From Magnetospirillum molischianum DSM 120 (GTDB lineage Bacteria; Pseudomonadota; Alphaproteobacteria; Rhodospirillales; Magnetospirillaceae): a DNA stretch of 64,000 nt. The stretch lies in contig NZ_CAHP01000009.1 in NCBI RefSeq assembly GCF_000294655.1, positions 6,059 through 70,058 on the forward strand, in the 5' to 3' direction. The notes below the pieces were generated by a model. It worked only from the letters and a program-made list of their open reading frames with translations, made no database searches and was not told where the DNA came from. Both the position numbers and the translations under genes were made by a program. Every line of letters starts with the position of its first letter. Position 1 is the first letter of the stretch. Positions 1 through 12,944 of this stretch are shown piece after piece.

Positions 1-176
1 ACAGCGAGGGGGCCTTTGTCGGCAGGTCCGGACGCCGGGGGGCACGCCCGACCCTATAAAGTCGGTGCGCCGCCCCTGGGAGGACAGACGCGCACCGTGG
101 CGGTGAGGTCAGACCGCCAAACCCTTTAGTTAAAAAGGAAAAATTTCGATCGAAGCCCTAGTTGAGAAGCAAAGCT
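1..176 (-). ncRNA. Small RNA copy A of a tandem array (3' end outside window)
   Basis: Read on the minus strand, this is the third and most diverged copy of a structured element. Hairpins are visible at 99-118 (GGCGG/CCGCC stem, 10-nt loop), 64-96 (GGTGCGC/GCGCACC stem, loop containing GUCCUCCC) and 25-53 (GGTCGGG/CCGGACC stem, loop containing GCCCCCC). The same three hairpins occur in the same order in copies B and C. A terminator, if present, lies beyond base 1. The proposed 5' end near 172-176 is the conserved AGCTT block, which lies exactly 40 bp from a GAAAGGG box. No coding potential is apparent. That it is transcribed is inferred from the terminators of the sister copies. Confidence 0.55.
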
Positions 177-198
177 GATGTAAAAATCATGGGCGCGT

Positions 199-224
199 GC
201 GGATTACCGTACCCTTTCGCCGCG
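199..224 (-). promoter_or_regulatory. Conserved upstream block of small RNA copy A
   Basis: On the minus strand this block reads GAAAGGG, four bases, then GTAATCCG. The same pattern precedes copies B and C, and in all three the GAAAGGG box is exactly 40 bp from a conserved AGCTT. It is probably a promoter or activator site; I cannot assign the sigma factor or regulator. Confidence 0.45.
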
Positions 225-259
225 ATGAAGCTTTGGTAACCATTACCATTACGATGGTT

Positions 260-302
260 AAAAAAGAAAAACCCCCGCGGCCGGAGGGGACGGACGCGGG
301 GG
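260..302 (-). terminator. Intrinsic terminator of small RNA copy B
   Basis: Stem CCCCCGCG (272-279) pairs with CGCGGGGG (295-302). On the minus strand the stem is followed by a run of T with one C (260-271), which is the classic Rho-independent layout. Confidence 0.85.
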
Positions 303-474
303 AAATTCTGTCAGGTCAAACCATTGGGGGGAGACGGTCTGACTTGCGATGACGTCCAACCTTCAGGGGGAGGAAGGTTGACCGTCCAGGGCGGGGAGTT
401 CATATCCGCCACTCACCAGGGACAACAGGAGGAAAATTGAGGTCGGTTCGTTGTCTTGACTGAGGATCAAAGCT
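260..474 (-). ncRNA. Small RNA copy B of the tandem array
   Basis: On the minus strand this reads as an RNA of about 215 nt. It has an unstructured 5' part, a GGCGG/CCGCC hairpin (390-410), a perfect 8-bp stem with an 8-nt loop CUCCCCCU (357-380), a GTCA-ACC/GGT-TGAC hairpin with loop containing UCUCCCCCCAAU (315-343), and a terminator hairpin (272-302) whose loop contains GUCCCCUCC, followed by a U-rich tail. The C-rich loops resemble the anti-Shine-Dalgarno loops of alphaproteobacterial cuckoo/CcsR small RNAs, but I cannot show homology to those. There is no plausible reading frame. The strand is set by the terminator. Confidence 0.65.
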
Positions 475-500
475 TATGAAGAGAGCATTGCATCTTGCGG

Positions 501-546
501 GTTACGATGCCCTTTCTACACGATTACCCTTTCGTAATGATCGGGT
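501..546 (-). promoter_or_regulatory. Conserved upstream block of small RNA copy B, with duplicated tlyA tail
   Basis: On the minus strand this contains two GAAAGGG boxes and a GTAACCCG element, with the proximal GAAAGGG 40 bp from AGCTT. The distal part repeats the last codons of tlyA: read in frame it would give P-I-I-T-K-G-stop, as at the real tlyA end (871-890). This suggests the repeat unit was duplicated together with the tlyA 3' end. Confidence 0.5.
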
Positions 547-615
547 TTTCCATCAAAGACGTACAGACCACCCACCCCCGTAACAACGCGGTCCACCTTC
601 TCCGCCGAGGCAAAT

Positions 616-652
616 AAAAAAACCCCCACACCAGGGGGGACTGGCGCGGGGG
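616..652 (-). terminator. Intrinsic terminator of small RNA copy C
   Basis: Stem 623-634 pairs with 641-652 (CCCCC and CCAG blocks pairing with CTGG and GGGGG, with mismatches between). On the minus strand it is followed by seven T (616-622). The hexaloop is UCCCCC. Confidence 0.8.
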
Positions 653-821
653 TCTTTTGGGGTGGCCAAACCATGGGGGGACATGGATCTGGCCCTTGAT
701 CCGCGCGCCTTCCTGGGGGGACAGGGGGGGGTAAGGCGCGCTAAATGGCGGGAGTTCAAAACCGCCGAAACAGAGAGAAAAAACGGGAAGTTGGTAAGCG
801 TCTTGGCTGATGTTTGAAGCT
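616..821 (-). ncRNA. Small RNA copy C of the tandem array
   Basis: This is the copy closest to tlyA. On the minus strand it has a GGCGG/CCGCC hairpin (747-766), a GCGCGCCTT/AAGGCGCGC hairpin with a long C-rich loop (703-741), a GGCCAAACCATG-type stem with hexaloop UCCCCC (664-694), and a terminator hairpin with loop UCCCCC (623-652) followed by seven T. Predicted length is about 205 nt. Hairpin order and loop character match copies A and B, while stem sequences differ with compensating changes. That is the signature of selection on RNA structure rather than on a protein. Confidence 0.65.
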
Positions 822-844
822 GATAGAAAGATGATGCCCGGACT

Positions 845-892
845 CGGATTACGGCGCCCTTTCGGTCCGATTAACCTTTCGTAATGATCGGA
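845..892 (-). promoter_or_regulatory. Conserved upstream block of small RNA copy C, overlapping the tlyA 3' end
   Basis: GAAAGGG, four bases and GTAATCCG on the minus strand, again with GAAAGGG exactly 40 bp from AGCTT (817-821). A second GAAAGG lies inside the last codons of tlyA, so the promoter or operator of copy C overlaps the tlyA stop region. Confidence 0.45.
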
Positions 893-1653
893 CTTTCTGC
901 TCCCTCCTCTGGCTGATCCCGCCGCCCGACGATCAGAAACTCGCGATTGCCTTCCGGGCCTTGAATCGGGCTTTCCGAAATACCCTCAACCCGCCAGCCC
1001 GAACGCAACGACAGCCAGGATCGAATCCGCTCGCAGACTTCCTGATGCAATTCAGGCTCACGCACGACCCCCCCTTTCCCCACCCGGCCCTTTCCGACCT
1101 CGAATTGCGGCTTGATCAGCGCCGCAAGAACGGCACCGGGCCGGGTCAGATCCATCGCGGCGGGCAATACCGTTTCCAATCCGATGAAGCTGGCATCGCA
1201 GACCACCATATCGATCGGCTCGGGAATATCGGCCACGGTCAGGTGGCGGGCATTGGTCCGTTCCATCACAACGACGCGGGGATCGGTGCGCAGCTTCCAA
1301 GCCAATTGGCCATGACCGACATCGACAGCATAAACCCGCGCCGCTCCATGGGTCAGAAGGACATCGGTGAAGCCGCCGGTCGAAGCGCCGACATCAATGG
1401 CGGTCTTGCCGTTGGGATCGATCGCAAAGGTTTCGATCGCATGAGACAGCTTCAGCCCGCCTCGCGACACCCAGGGATGGTCCTGCCCCTTCAGCGTCAG
1501 CGGGAAATCCTCTGCCACCGGCGTGCCGGGCTTATCGACACGGCGATCACCCGAATAGACCAGCCCCGCCAGCACCAGAGCCTGGGCGCGAGACCTGCTT
1601 TCCACCAAGCCGCGATCGACCAGAAGCTGGTCTACTCGTTTACGTTCCGCCAT
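871..1653 (-). CDS. tlyA: TlyA-family S4-domain RNA 2'-O-methyltransferase
   Basis: The 260-residue product matches the TlyA/hemolysin A family, which 2'-O-methylates ribosomal RNA. An S4 RNA-binding domain occupies about residues 3-65 (RVDQLLVDRGLVESRSRAQAL). It is followed by an FtsJ-like Rossmann methyltransferase domain with the SAM loop AIDVGASTGGFTDVLL near residue 85, the DVVCDASFI-type motif, and IKPQFEVGK. In many alphaproteobacteria tlyA follows dxs; here it lies near xseB-ispA-dxs but on the opposite strand, divergent from the deacetylase-like gene. Its last codons overlap the upstream block of the adjacent small RNA. Length and motifs are intact. Confidence 0.9.
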   Translation of the reverse strand: MAERKRVDQLLVDRGLVESRSRAQALVLAGLVYSGDRRVDKPGTPVAEDFPLTLKGQDHPWVSRGGLKLSHAIETFAIDPNGKTAIDVGASTGGFTDVLLTHGAARVYAVDVGHGQLAWKLRTDPRVVVMERTNARHLTVADIPEPIDMVVCDASFIGLETVLPAAMDLTRPGAVLAALIKPQFEVGKGRVGKGGVVREPELHQEVCERIRSWLSLRSGWRVEGISESPIQGPEGNREFLIVGRRDQPEEGAESPIITKG

Positions 1654-6023: not shown

Positions 6024-6095
6024 GCGCGTGTATAACACTTTTGACTCGTTGTTAGATTGGATTCACCGTGACAAGATGTGCCTTTCCCGGTATCG

Positions 6096-6111
6096 ATTGA
6101 ACTTCTTCAAT
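6096..6111. promoter_or_regulatory. Inverted repeat upstream of the ArsR-type regulator (candidate operator)
   Basis: Perfect repeat ATTGAA-CTTC-TTCAAT, about 50 bp before the regulator start and followed by an AT-rich stretch (TACCTTATATATC) that could hold a -10 element. It suits autorepression by a dimeric winged-helix protein. Confidence 0.45.
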
Positions 6112-6158
6112 TTAGTGATACCTTATATATCTCGTCTGCCAGCGAGGATTCCGTATCG

Positions 6159-6476
6159 ATGGATGTCGACAAACTTCACGAAAGCGCCCGCAAAGCTAGC
6201 GCATTGCTCAAAGCCATGAGCAATGAGCACCGTCTGATGATTCTGTGCCAATTATTGCGGGGAGAAAAATCGGTCGGAGAACTTGAACGAGTGATCGGCC
6301 TTAGCCAGTCCGCCTTATCGCAGCATCTCGCCCGTTTGCGCCGCGACAGTCTGGTCAGGACTCGCCGTCAAGCTCAAACTATTTTCTATTCCCTGGCCGG
6401 TCGCGAGGCCGGGGCTGTCATCGATACACTTTATCATCTCTATTGCGCCCCTGAAGACGCTGTTGCCGCACAATAA
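6159..6476 (+). CDS. ArsR-family regulator, SqrR/BigR-like thiol sensor
   Basis: The 105-residue winged-helix protein shows the ArsR DNA-recognition segment SQSALSQHLARLRRDSLVRTRR and a beta wing TIFYSLAG. It has exactly two cysteines, Cys30 and Cys96. Their 66-residue separation equals that of the sulfane-sulfur sensors SqrR (Cys41/Cys107) and BigR (Cys42/Cys108), in which the pair forms a persulfide-derived bridge. The metal sites of classical ArsR/SmtB (CxCxxC) are absent. The start at 6159 gives the family-typical N terminus. No sulfide-oxidation gene is adjacent, so the regulon is unknown. Confidence 0.8.
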   Translation: MDVDKLHESARKASALLKAMSNEHRLMILCQLLRGEKSVGELERVIGLSQSALSQHLARLRRDSLVRTRRQAQTIFYSLAGREAGAVIDTLYHLYCAPEDAVAAQ

Positions 6477-6492
6477 AGAGCGCGGCAATTAG

Positions 6493-6516
6493 AAAAACGG
6501 GGCGTTGCGCGCCCCG
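6493..6516 (-). terminator. Intrinsic terminator of the hisI-cobW transcript
   Basis: Stem CGGGGCG / CGCCCCG, followed on the minus strand by five T and then an AT-rich tail, just beyond the cobW-like stop codon. It sits between converging genes. Confidence 0.7.
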
Positions 6517-6532
6517 CCCTTTCCCAGGATTT

Positions 6533-7621
6533 TTATCCGGCAAGGTCGAGGGCCAGCACTCCCGACAGCAATTCCTCCACCATTTCGCGAGGAAGATCAC
6601 GGGTGATAAAAACAATCCGGGTCCGATGATCGTCATCGGGCCACCCCGGCAACGGCGCAGGCGGATGGAAGACGTGCTGGACACCATGGATCGCCAGGGG
6701 TTCCGGCACTTCGCGGGCGTTGACGATACCTTTGACCCGCAACAAATTTTCGCCCTTCGACGAAATCATCAATTCCAATGCCAACGCTAACGAAGGCCAG
6801 GATACCGGCTCGTCCGTCGTAAAGACGAACGACTGGATTCGGTCGTCATGGCGGTTGGGGTCATGACTATGATGACCGTGCCCGTGTTGGTGATGTCCTC
6901 CATGGCCGTGGCCGTGTTTGTCATGTCCGTGGCCGTGATCATGGCCATGATCGCGATAGGCTTCTTCGTTGAGCCAGCGGGCGACATCGGGAATCTTCGA
7001 ATCCCGACTGAAAAGTCCGGCATCGAGAATCGACGCGGGATCGATTTGTCCGTGATCAGCCTCAATGATCGGAGCGGCGGGATTAAGGCGGGACAAGCGC
7101 GCTTTCAGGGCCGCCAACGTCTCGGGCGAGGCCAGATCGGTCTTCGTCAGGATCAAACGGTCGGCCACCGCCGCCTGCTTGACCGCTTCAGGCTGAGTAT
7201 CCAGGGTGTGGTCGCCGCACACGCCGTCGATGGTGGCAACGATGCCATCAAGCTTGTAGCGCGAGGCGATCATCGGGTCGGTCATCAGGGTATGGATGAT
7301 CGGAGCCGGATCGGCCAGCCCGGTGGTCTCGATCACCACCCGCGAAAAATCAGGCACCTCGCCACGGGTCCGCTTGATGAACAGATCGCGCATTCCTTCG
7401 ACCAGATCGCCGCGCACCGTACAGCACAGACAACCCGATTGCAGCAACACGACCGTCTCTGCCACAGAACGGACCAACAAATGATCGAGTCCAACGGAGC
7501 CGAACTCATTGATGAGGACGGCCGTATCGGACAATTCCGGCCGCGCCAACAGATGGTTGAGCAACGTCGTTTTGCCGCTGCCCAGAAAGCCGGTCAGAAC
7601 GGTAACGGGAATCAGACTCAT
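6533..7621 (-). CDS. COG0523/CobW-family GTPase, putative zinc chaperone
   Basis: The 362-residue protein has the G3E GTPase P-loop GFLGSGKTT (residues 11-19), the family metal motif GCLCC (63-67, CxCC), the Walker B-like ETTGLADP, and NKxD-like TKTD. The C-terminal CobW_C domain is separated from the GTPase by a very His-rich stretch with more than 15 His (around residues 238-275), expected to bind metal. Co-transcription with hisI and divergence from a Zur-type regulator point to the zinc-linked COG0523 branch rather than cobalamin synthesis. The start at 7621 avoids overlap with hisI. Confidence 0.85.
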   Translation of the reverse strand: MSLIPVTVLTGFLGSGKTTLLNHLLARPELSDTAVLINEFGSVGLDHLLVRSVAETVVLLQSGCLCCTVRGDLVEGMRDLFIKRTRGEVPDFSRVVIETTGLADPAPIIHTLMTDPMIASRYKLDGIVATIDGVCGDHTLDTQPEAVKQAAVADRLILTKTDLASPETLAALKARLSRLNPAAPIIEADHGQIDPASILDAGLFSRDSKIPDVARWLNEEAYRDHGHDHGHGHDKHGHGHGGHHQHGHGHHSHDPNRHDDRIQSFVFTTDEPVSWPSLALALELMISSKGENLLRVKGIVNAREVPEPLAIHGVQHVFHPPAPLPGWPDDDHRTRIVFITRDLPREMVEELLSGVLALDLAG

Positions 7622-7640
7622 GGCGGGGGGTATCCTTGGT

Positions 7641-8042
7641 TCAGGCTCCGTAAAGCTGATCGGGCGAGACCAGCACCGGCGCAATCTCGACCAGTCCTTC
7701 GGGGCGAACGGCCGTATAGAAACAGTGCCGACGGCCGGTATGGCAGGCGACACCCTCCTGATCGACACAAAGCAGGATCGTGTCTCCGTCGCAGTCGATA
7801 CGGAAATCGACGAGACGCTGGCGCTGACCAGAGCTTTCACCCTTGCGCCACAACCGCGAGCGCGAGCGCGACCAGTAACAGACTTGGCCGGTAGCAAGCG
7901 TTTCGATCACTGCGTCACGGTTCATCCAAGCCATCATCAGCACCTCGCCGCTGTCATGCTGCTGGGCAATCGCCGCGACCAACCCATCGGAATCGAATTT
8001 CAGCAGATCAAGCGCGGCGTTGGGGTCAATGGCGGCGGACAT
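7641..8042 (-). CDS. hisI: Phosphoribosyl-AMP cyclohydrolase
   Basis: HisI opens the purine ring of PR-AMP in histidine biosynthesis and uses Zn and Mg. The 133-residue protein keeps the active-site signature: W-SRSR-LWRKGESSG, then DCDGDTILL and ACHTGRRHCFY, with the Cys, His and Asp ligands in place. The start at 8042 follows a GGGAGAG ribosome-binding site. It is the first gene of a two-gene unit with the zinc-chaperone-like GTPase, under a Zur-like operator. It could be a zinc-limitation paralogue, but its metal ligands look canonical. Confidence 0.92.
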   Translation of the reverse strand: MSAAIDPNAALDLLKFDSDGLVAAIAQQHDSGEVLMMAWMNRDAVIETLATGQVCYWSRSRSRLWRKGESSGQRQRLVDFRIDCDGDTILLCVDQEGVACHTGRRHCFYTAVRPEGLVEIAPVLVSPDQLYGA

Positions 8043-8180
8043 GAGACTCTCCCTGGGCAATATAATCCCTTGATATAGACCAGAGAAGCCGCGACGCAAA
8101 GCCCTGCGCAACGGTTCCTCCGTATCGAGGAATTGCCCCTTCGCAACCCATCCCTCCCGTGCGATCATCAAGAGGAGGAT

Positions 8181-8197
8181 ACGTTATAACATAACGA
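8181..8197. promoter_or_regulatory. zur box: Zur-like operator between hisI and zur
   Basis: The core GTTATAACATAAC (8183-8195) has GTTAT/ATAAC arms. It resembles Zur sites, whose core is often TGTTATAACA-like. It lies 18 bp before the zur start and about 140 bp before hisI, so it could control both directions. Confidence 0.6.
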
Positions 8198-8213
8198 AAC
8201 GAACGGACCAAGA

Positions 8214-8717
8214 ATGGCTTTTCCCACCGCCCGCCACGATCACTCCGCCTGCATCCAGGCCGCGCTGGACGCCGCCGAGCAGGAATGCCGCCGTCGCGGC
8301 GCACGACTGACCGATACCCGCCGGATCGTTCTCGAACTGGTGTGGGAAAGCCATCGCCCGGTCGGAGCCTATGCCTTGCTCGAAAGCCTTGGAAAACTTG
8401 GCCGGTCAGCAGCTCCGCCGACCGTTTATCGCGCTCTCGACTTCCTTTTGGCGCATGGATTGATCCATCGGGTGGCATCACGCAACGGCTTTATCGGCTG
8501 CCCCCATCCGGGCCATGCTCATGGCGGCCAGATTCTCCTGTGCACCCAATGCGGCATGGCGGCGGAACTGGACGATCCCGCACTGGACCAGGAAATCGTC
8601 AACTCCGCCGCGCGCCTGGGTTTTTCGGTCAATCGCCAGACTATCGAGGTCGAAGGGCTATGCCCCGTCTGCCGCGCCCAGAGAAACAGCGAAGAAGAAC
8701 AAAATTACGTCGCCTAA
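8214..8717 (+). CDS. zur: Fur-family zinc uptake regulator
   Basis: The 167-residue protein is a Fur-superfamily repressor of the Zur subgroup. The N-terminal winged helix contains LTDTRRIVLELVWESHRPVGAYALLE and PPTVYRALDFL. The metal-binding half has CPHPGHAHGGQILLCTQCG and a C-terminal CPVC, giving the CxxC pairs of the structural zinc site. It is divergent from hisI and a COG0523 GTPase with a Zur-type palindrome between, a classical zinc-starvation arrangement. Confidence 0.88.
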   Translation: MAFPTARHDHSACIQAALDAAEQECRRRGARLTDTRRIVLELVWESHRPVGAYALLESLGKLGRSAAPPTVYRALDFLLAHGLIHRVASRNGFIGCPHPGHAHGGQILLCTQCGMAAELDDPALDQEIVNSAARLGFSVNRQTIEVEGLCPVCRAQRNSEEEQNYVA

Positions 8718-12089: not shown

Positions 12090-12117
12090 CGCGAGGCACG
12101 CCGTTCTGGAAAAGAAC

Positions 12118-12154
12118 AAGCCCCCGGAGGATATCGACCTCCGGGGGCTTTTTT
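12118..12154 (+). terminator. Intrinsic terminator after rnd
   Basis: Stem AAGCCCCCGGAGG / CCTCCGGGGGCTT with loop ATATCGA and a run of T. The A-flank means it could also act on the convergent minus-strand gene. Confidence 0.88.
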
Positions 12155-12164
12155 ACGTTTGGGA

Positions 12165-12944
12165 TCACACGTTGAAACGTTTGACGTAACGTCCGGCGAT
12201 ATCGGCGGCACTAACCACGACCAGAACGTCGGTGGTGTTGAACTGGTGATCAATGATCGCGCCGTCGCCCACCATGCCGCCCAGGCGCAGATAGCCTTTC
12301 AGCAAGGGCGGCAACGAGGCCAGAACCCGTCGAGCGTCCCAGGTCGCCATGACCGAGGCAAAGTCAATTCTATCCCGGCTGGAGAGGGCGCGACCGCGCA
12401 AGGAAGGCGGGGCTAGGTGATTGTCACGCAGATACGCAATCTGCGGACCCAGCGCCGCCGGGTCGGTGCCGGGCAAGCTGCCACACCCGAAGAGAAGTCG
12501 GATGTCATTCTCGACCATATAGGCAGCCAGACCCTGCCACAGCATTTGCAGTGTGCCGCGATGACGCCAGCGGGCATCGACGCAAGAGCGGCCCAGTTCG
12601 AGGATTGGTCCCGACGTCGCCAGCAATGCCGACAGATCGAACTCACCCTCGGAATAGAAATGACCGATCCGAGCCGCGGCGGCGCGGTGGATCAGGCGAT
12701 AGGTTCCAACCACCTCCCCCTCGGCCAGAACCAGCAGATGATCGCAAACATCGTCGTATTCGTCGAAGTCACGATCCTGGTTGCGCATCAGGGCGGTAGG
12801 CTTTGCTCCCATTTCCTCGTAAAACACCCTGTAGCGGATGCGTTGAGCCGCTTCGATTTCGGCCCGGCTTTCTGCCAGACGAACTTCGACGGCGCCGGGA
12901 ACAGCCGGCATGAGGGCTTGGACAACCAGGTCCTGGTGGGTCAA
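12165..12944 (-). CDS. olsB: OlsB-like ornithine-acyl-[ACP] N-acyltransferase
   Basis: The 259-residue protein is a GNAT-type acyltransferase of the OlsB/hemolysin-like group. Typical parts are RLAESRAEIEAAQRIRYRVFYEEMGA near residue 21, a DEYDDVCDHLLV segment, VGTYRL, and ELGRSCVDARWRHRGTLQMLW with the acyl-ACP binding region. OlsB adds a 3-hydroxy fatty acid to ornithine, the first step to phosphate-free ornithine lipids. OlsA is not nearby, so in vivo function is inferred from family only. Confidence 0.75.
   Translation of the reverse strand: MTHQDLVVQALMPAVPGAVEVRLAESRAEIEAAQRIRYRVFYEEMGAKPTALMRNQDRDFDEYDDVCDHLLVLAEGEVVGTYRLIHRAAAARIGHFYSEGEFDLSALLATSGPILELGRSCVDARWRHRGTLQMLWQGLAAYMVENDIRLLFGCGSLPGTDPAALGPQIAYLRDNHLAPPSLRGRALSSRDRIDFASVMATWDARRVLASLPPLLKGYLRLGGMVGDGAIIDHQFNTTDVLVVVSAADIAGRYVKRFNV

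Follow-up and report, generated by a model that had tools for sequence, protein, structure and literature searches.

A conserved tandem array of C-rich-loop small RNA genes beside an OmpR-type two-component system in Magnetospirillum

The first 892 nucleotides of a 64,000-nucleotide (nt) stretch of the Magnetospirillum molischianum DSM 120 genome (hereafter referred to as the window) carry, on the minus strand, three small RNA (sRNA) units in the order C, B and A. Here we report that this array is real and conserved and that, judged from sequence, it most likely forms a set of anti-Shine-Dalgarno-type sRNAs under the control of the two-component system next to it. We put at about three in four the probability that the units are three separate trans-acting sRNA genes, derived by tandem expansion from one ancestral gene, activated by the neighbouring response regulator and blocking ribosome-binding sites with their loops. 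Sequence comparison establishes the gene structure, the promoters, the terminators, the orthologues, the covariation and the sharing of the promoter with operons of degP, response-regulator and histidine-kinase genes. A literature search of partial coverage found no description of this C-rich-loop RNA family, which is apparently undescribed so far in Magnetospirillum-type bacteria.

Reading and folding the minus strand revealed, in all three units, the hairpin order described in the initial annotation: a GGCGG/CCGCC hairpin (SL1), a long stem with a C-rich loop (SL2) and a stem with a UCCCCCC-type loop (SL3). The C-loop terminators that it had placed in units B and C are both complete within the window (Table 1). 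The terminator of unit A, whose loop is not C-rich, spans two Ns directly to the left of window position 1 (L006). Every unit has its own promoter, that of unit C overlapping the 3′ end of tlyA, and the array lies between tlyA and genes for an OmpR-type response regulator and a histidine kinase just past the left edge of the window (L006), ending 56 nt before the regulator. This regulator scores 261.5 bits with TIGR01387 (CzcR/CopR heavy-metal regulators), below the cut-off of 279.2, and is by the TIGR01387 rule a relative, not a member. R2, a covariance model of the RNA, scores unit C at 59.5 bits (616-769), unit B at 59.7 bits (265-413) and unit A at 42.4 bits with flanking sequence (L006:3035-3180; 21.0 bits for the part within the window). 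Unit C has orthologues in the genomes G176 and G185, and unit B in G176. A further R2 match at 12114-12276 (21.5 bits) appears to be a terminator only. Elsewhere in the window, at 6078-8717, open reading frames (ORFs) resembling ArsR, a His-rich COG0523-type GTPase and Fur are clustered, an arrangement that, by eye in the ORF list, resembles a zinc-response cluster.

Table 1. Features of the sRNA array, in window coordinates
Feature	Position	Strand	Remarks
Promoter of unit C	817-884	-	TTAC, TAAT, AAAG, TAAT 11 bp apart; -10 CATCAT at 831-836; exact pattern match, conserved columns
sRNA C, ~209 nt	616-824	-	Fold with hairpins and terminator; 5′ end assumed from -10 position
C SL1, GGCGG-UUUUGAACUC-CCGCC	747-766	-	
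C SL2, C-rich loop on long stem	703-741	-	Stem ends differ, pairing intact in G185, G176
C SL3, UCCCCC loop	664-694	-	
C terminator hairpin, UCCCCCC loop and U-tail	616-654	-	
Promoter of unit B	470-537	-	TTAC, TAAT, AAAG, TAAC; -10 AATGCT at 484-489; exact pattern match
sRNA B, ~211 nt	267-477	-	Fold; 5′ end assumed
B SL1, GGCGG-AUAUGAACUCC-CCGCC	390-410	-	
B SL2, CUCCCCCU loop	357-380	-	
B SL3, CUCCCCCCA loop	315-343	-	
B terminator, UCCCCUC loop, U-rich tail	261-302	-	
Promoter of unit A	172-239	-	TTAC, TCAT, AAAG, TAAT; -10 CATGAT at 186-191; exact pattern match
sRNA A, ~200 nt in total	1-179	-	Terminator extends ~25 nt past window start, then response-regulator gene
A SL1, GGCGG-UCUGACCUCA-CCGCC	99-118	-	
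A SL2, GUCCUCCC in loop region	64-96	-	
A SL3, GCCCCCCG loop	24-55	-	
tlyA, upstream neighbour of array	871-1653	-	TIGR00478 236.6 bits, cut-off 185.8

The pattern already noticed within the array, stems that differ while their pairing is kept, is supported by orthologues from the genus. We compared 11 of the 14 single-copy genus orthologues, aligned by sequence alone (alignment A3), one of which supplied the structure; a 27-sequence alignment (A2), in which SL2 and SL3 were misaligned and only 16 pairs remained, was dropped. Of 40 pairs, 13 changed on both sides, a number reached by none of 500 shuffles (mean 7.7) and compared with 4 to 9 for slid partners. Cells with a two-sided change numbered 26 (shuffle mean 11.0) and the covariation score was 0.217 (shuffles 0.137), each reached in 0 of 500 shuffles, and 87.8% of cells were paired as against 39-49% with slid partners. 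The two SL2 helices had only 63% and 75% of their cells paired, and the count of further pair types in these orthologues was no better than in shuffles (88 of 500 reached the observed value). A model derived from this alignment also matches two divergent units that had been kept out of it, at 101.6 and 94.3 bits. Covariation thus supports the hairpins. The loops are constant by comparison: in unit C from three species, the C-rich loops, already noted to stay C-rich within the array, are identical while the stems vary, with 7 two-sided changes, 14 one-sided changes that keep the pair and 2 broken pairs, summed over the species pairs. Among 38 long units, 141 of 178 minimum-free-energy hairpins of at least 4 bp have C-rich or CUCC-type loops (CTCC, CCCC or CTCA); CCTCC occurs in 21 units, at least two C6 runs in 31 and GAACTCC in 32.

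In the 64-kb window, no Rfam family matched at its gathering threshold. The best sub-threshold match is ar14 (RF02344; gathering threshold 58.8 bits), with 37.9 bits for unit C (E 2.8e-5) and 35.5 bits for unit B (E 9.6e-5), and it recurs in the loci of 11 of 18 relatives at 25.7-43.3 bits, all below 58.8. The available part of one account (PMC10746234) describes NfeR1, the ar14 founder, as carrying the same CCUCCUCCC motif in each of three hairpins and, in its promoter, sites for LsrB and NtrC, an activator site lying at -72 to -60. As far as that account goes, the window RNAs resemble ar14, NfeR1 and the cuckoo RNAs in their several stem-loops, anti-Shine-Dalgarno-type loops, freely varying stems and dependence on an activator, which here is predicted; SL2, SL3 and the terminator form an ar14-like series of C-rich-loop hairpins with variable stems, the last being the terminator. 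It nevertheless seems unlikely that the units are simply true ar14/cuckoo members, that is, RNAs with CCUCCUCCC loops controlled by an LsrB-type regulator or by RpoH. SL1 and often another 5′ hairpin are extra relative to ar14, giving up to five hairpins, the loops carry C-runs and GAACUCC, and the genes adjoin a CzcR-like two-component system and have a promoter in common with degP operons. CCUCCUCCC is present in 0 of the 38 long units (the long class only); since the scores also stay below the gathering threshold, we rejected ar14 membership. The initial annotation had left the choice between a distinct family and a diverged relative of cuckoo/CcsR, a description that gains support from the other genomes carrying the element and from the covariation.

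Other known systems resemble the array in part. Like the window RNAs, 6C RNA (RF01066), from Actinobacteria, has CCCCCC-loop hairpins, but its model has two hairpins, its scores stay below the gathering threshold of 47 (best 42.3 bits, L041; 31.0 bits in the window) and we know of no two-component neighbour for it. CpxQ and MicA/RybB are sRNA outputs of envelope-stress regulators, as is proposed for the window RNAs; they act by Hfq-dependent seed pairing and are not known to form a C-loop RNA array. CcsR1-4 of Rhodobacter sphaeroides likewise stand side by side as homologous sRNAs, four in number, in an alphaproteobacterium. According to the part of PMC10253847 available, RNase E releases them from a single transcript that is driven by RpoHI/RpoHII and includes ccaF1 (DUF1127), whereas each unit of the window has its own promoter and terminator. 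The available part of a M. gryphiswaldense transcriptome study names one sRNA, BjrC80, from Rfam (PMC9549626).

A GAAAGGG box at a fixed distance from AGCTT had been noted in each unit. The spacing is indeed constant in all three (42 nt from start to start); outside the array, conservation lies in elements 11 bp apart and does not extend to GAAAGGG itself. A spacing pattern with 20 specified bases, TTACNAAA-N24-GTAAYCCG-N23-AGCTT, found three sites in the window at up to three mismatches, all exact, and none in 100 dinucleotide shuffles; at the same stringency, the whole genome (G000; 3.8 Mb in 61 contigs) contains 7 sites and its reversed control 0. At up to two mismatches, 248 genomes of the order yielded 20 sites, all in 4 genomes of the same genus, and the reversed control gave 5 single matches in 5 other genomes. 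Column statistics over 66 promoters, in whose selection some of the promoter letters served, put the four elements at positions 1, 12, 23 and 34, the hexamer [CT]ATNNT following at 49-54, with A25 (65 promoters), A50 (65) and T54 (64) consistent among the unselected columns. Four elements 11 bp apart followed by a -10 element are the layout of PhoB-type promoters, and in the 66 promoters the last direct repeat lies ~11 bp upstream of the -10 element, the spacing that marks OmpR/PhoB-type promoters. The GAAAGGG/AGCTT spacing is, by this layout, part of a PhoB-like, regulator-type promoter. An earlier choice of CATAAG as the -10 element was dropped once the hexamer at 49-54 proved common to degP promoters, and none of the readings as an RpoH, sigma-54 or ECF promoter, judged by eye, agrees with the conserved columns.

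A promoter model (R1) that incorporated 20 of the 21 pattern-found sites detected 12 strong sites and one weak site (E 0.2) in G000, 7 of the 12 having been in the model, and 13 sites in G185 and 16, one of them weak, in G176. One G000 site (C1:20-106, L215), at a contig edge, is a copy of the C23:382 promoter that differs by small insertions. As this copy is probably an assembly duplicate, we count 11 distinct sRNA genes, eight of them outside the array. All 11 strong promoters lead into an RNA ending at a terminator; having been trained on sRNA promoters, R1 might overlook weaker sites in front of protein genes. The genes fall into three classes. In G000 the long class comprises A, B, C, one gene on C20 and two on C23. 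The short class (C10 and C14; ~75-80 nt) has a conserved 5′ CUGAGCCUCAGCCACUC and GUCCUCC, and the middle class (C12 and two genes on C14; ~110 nt) contains GAACUCCCCGCC. Short-class loci lie under the common promoter (L007:1079-1220; L009, minus strand, 1543-1410) with CUGAGCCUCAGCCACUC strongly conserved, and G176 has five short-class sites, two of them nearly identical. Middle-class RNAs, also under the common promoter, show an SL1 with GAACUCCCCGC and a terminator loop CACACCCU (L214, L172, L216-L219, L221-L223).

The gene next to the regulator recurs widely in relatives. R2 matched 41 of 297 genomes of the order, 37 of them in the family and 18 family genomes being without a match; among the 37, 34 matches adjoin the regulator by coordinates, one (G253) is on another contig and two are weak (G224, G234). 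Regulator matches at E 1e-60 or better, paralogues included, are present in 51 of 55 family genomes, and a C-loop RNA lies directly before the orthologous OmpR-type regulator in 31 of 34 family loci inspected upstream. In the best 30 of these (85-100% regulator identity; the 27 outside the array genomes were parsed separately), promoter, C-loop RNA and terminator stand directly upstream in 30 of 30. The same order precedes the regulator of G240, which R2 missed. G253 has another ORF before the regulator, its RNA lying on the other contig with its own promoter. In G252 and G254 the place of the RNA is taken by a Do-protease gene, whose 3′ end lies 107 and 91 nt, respectively, before the regulator; the partial Do-protease proteins score 159.6 and 175.2 bits with TIGR02037. 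Outside G000, G176 and G185, R1 gave one strong match next to the regulator in each of 14 genus genomes, that of G164 having been among the sites of the model. Arrays occur in G176, with the same three units, and in G185, with C and A. Thus, both proposed checks of the element, its occurrence in other genomes and covarying pairs, turned out positive, in the R2 genomes and the 11 aligned units, respectively. Weak R2 matches (E 8e-4 to 0.007) in G115, G093, G242 and G224 show, by eye, little beyond a terminator and were not counted as members. C-rich-loop hairpins also precede a terminator in G036 (L177, minus strand) and G234 (L180); these may be cousins and were likewise not counted.

This constant position also fits an RNA that acts in cis, as 5′ leader or attenuator for the operon of the response regulator, with the extra copies as decayed duplicates: the regulator-adjacent copy ends at a strong terminator 33-120 nt before the regulator start in 30 of 30 loci. 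We consider this reading quite unlikely. Eight of the 11 G000 copies lie elsewhere with promoter and terminator intact, which weakens it, and downstream of C and B come more sRNA promoters. Moreover, a -10-like TA[AT]GGT lies between the terminator and the regulator start in 28 of 30 loci, 32-37 nt before the start in 25 of the 28, and may be the regulator's own -10 element; in 17 of the 30 loci, a copy of the hexamer is present farther upstream as well.

Beyond the family, the sRNA promoter is found in front of degP, and this suggests which protein activates it. R1 matched 13 of 71 non-family loci (Roseibium, Pannonibacter, Hyphomicrobiales and others, with L169 and L130 additional), with E values from 2.6e-8 to 0.03. 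These matches lie ~1.7-1.9 kb upstream of the same regulator and are separated from it by a degP-like ORF. Four of four degP-like ORFs tested exceed the TIGR02037 cut-off, the one of L169 lying elsewhere in its locus. A degP-like ORF precedes the regulator in 46 of the 71 non-family loci. In 19 of these 46 a strict form of the promoter motif stands before degP, compared with 0.13% of mononucleotide shuffles; it is absent in 27 of 46, and reverse-strand matches number 3 of 46. Around the Do proteases of G185 and G102, and around the two full-length ones of G000, which lie on other contigs, no promoter motif was found. Because the promoter is common to operons of degP, response-regulator and histidine-kinase genes, and 45 of 46 sRNA promoters are nearer to the degP than to the pstS profile, the neighbouring response regulator is the likely activator of the sRNA promoters. 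The simplest reading of these comparisons would be that the promoter is the regulator's own site, retained in degP operons and sRNA genes.

Two other activators can be considered. A LysR-type activator resembling LsrB would find a T-N11-A (T2, A14) at the left end of the promoter near -65, which is where the NfeR1 promoter has its LsrB site in the part of PMC10746234 available. It is an improbable driver, for in other taxa this site also precedes degP in operons that contain this regulator, two more elements hold the 11-bp phase and pstS promoters have the same layout. Least probable is that PhoB drives the promoters, placing the sRNAs in the phosphate-starvation regulon: pstS promoters, presumed pho boxes, do have the same four-element 11-bp layout in 16 of 17 genus genomes (L272-L288; the seventeenth, with a wrong start, was left out), the pstS promoter of G164 is a second, weaker R1 match (21.5 bits, E 5.7e-4) and the box of unit A is very similar to it. 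The pstS promoters differ, however, at position 2, which is C or A, at positions 23-24, which are mostly TC, and in a -10 element lying one base nearer. T2 occurs in 45 of the 46 sRNA sites and in none of the 16 pstS sites, A25 in 46 of 46 and 5 of 16, respectively. At unselected positions, the degP profile describes 45 of 46 sRNA promoters better than that of pstS does, even though the pstS sites come from the same genus.

With the neighbouring regulator as activator, we infer expression of the RNAs, an envelope signal, and action in trans by pairing, which would work as follows. An ancestral sRNA gene directly upstream of the OmpR/CzcR-like regulator and histidine-kinase genes would have expanded in tandem to C, B and A. 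The kinase would sense a cell-envelope signal; envelope stress is suggested by degP as a periplasmic quality-control protease and by Sinorhizobium meliloti, in which degP1, SMc02366 and SMc02367 rise at acid pH in the parts of two studies available (PMC2651895, PMC4941405). In S. meliloti, as in the promoter-sharing operons, the two-component genes SMc02366 (ragA) and SMc02367 lie downstream of degP1; unlike for the window array, no sRNA is named there in the available parts of these studies. The phosphorylated regulator would bind the four elements 11 bp apart, which end 11 bp upstream of the -10 element, and recruit RNA polymerase, and the sRNAs would accumulate, ending at their C-loop terminators. 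By analogy with ar14, the C-rich loops probably pair with G-rich ribosome-binding sites: the single-stranded UCCCCCC, GAACUCC and GUCCUCC would block translation, and several loops per RNA and 11 genes in G000 could give a greater dose and a wider choice of targets.

The pairing of loops with ribosome-binding sites is the weakest step of this proposed mechanism. The best partner of UCCCCCC is GGGGGGA, not GGAGG, and among 63 ATG-started ORFs of at least 200 aa in the window, a mechanical list of which many are not genes, GGGGGG occurs within the 20 nt upstream in 0 and GGGGG in 2. Among the matches listed in three genomes, GGGGGGA before ATG outnumbers the reversed control (56 versus 19, 60 versus 10 and 68 versus 10), an excess that is expected anyway from G-rich ribosome-binding sites. 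A lead is bchP (TIGR02023 516 bits, cut-off 343; L230), a candidate target with GGGGGGAAAGACGATG in all three M. fulvum-clade genomes among the matches listed, the G185 copy by matched letters only. The ribosome-binding site of bchP at L230:316-1503 (G000 C1) and in L235 (G176 C2) is GGGGGGA, complementary to UCCCCCC loops. At L006:2984-3040, GGGGGGAAGG lies between the unit A terminator and the regulator start in the three M. fulvum-clade genomes, and is a possible feedback site for the sRNAs.

In Alphaproteobacteria, these comparisons give a testable link between C-rich-loop sRNAs and a two-component system associated with degP. They provide a covariance model for the RNA and a definition of its promoter, and point to particular genomes for RNA sequencing. 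They also reveal a natural series: the position before the regulator is occupied by degP in some relatives and by a single sRNA gene in most, and there are 11 or more such genes in the clade of M. fulvum, formerly Phaeospirillum. Tentatively, a C-rich-loop sRNA of the Magnetospirillum group may have taken over the degP promoter of an envelope-stress regulator, whose detectable regulon would now be RNA only, and may then have radiated in the M. fulvum clade to 11 or more genes of three structural classes, an anti-Shine-Dalgarno RNA bank that perhaps controls photosynthesis genes such as bchP; the retention of degP at the RNA's place in two family genomes (G252 and G254) makes the takeover more probable. 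The series opens the question of how and why a stress regulator exchanges a protease for RNAs and then multiplies them.
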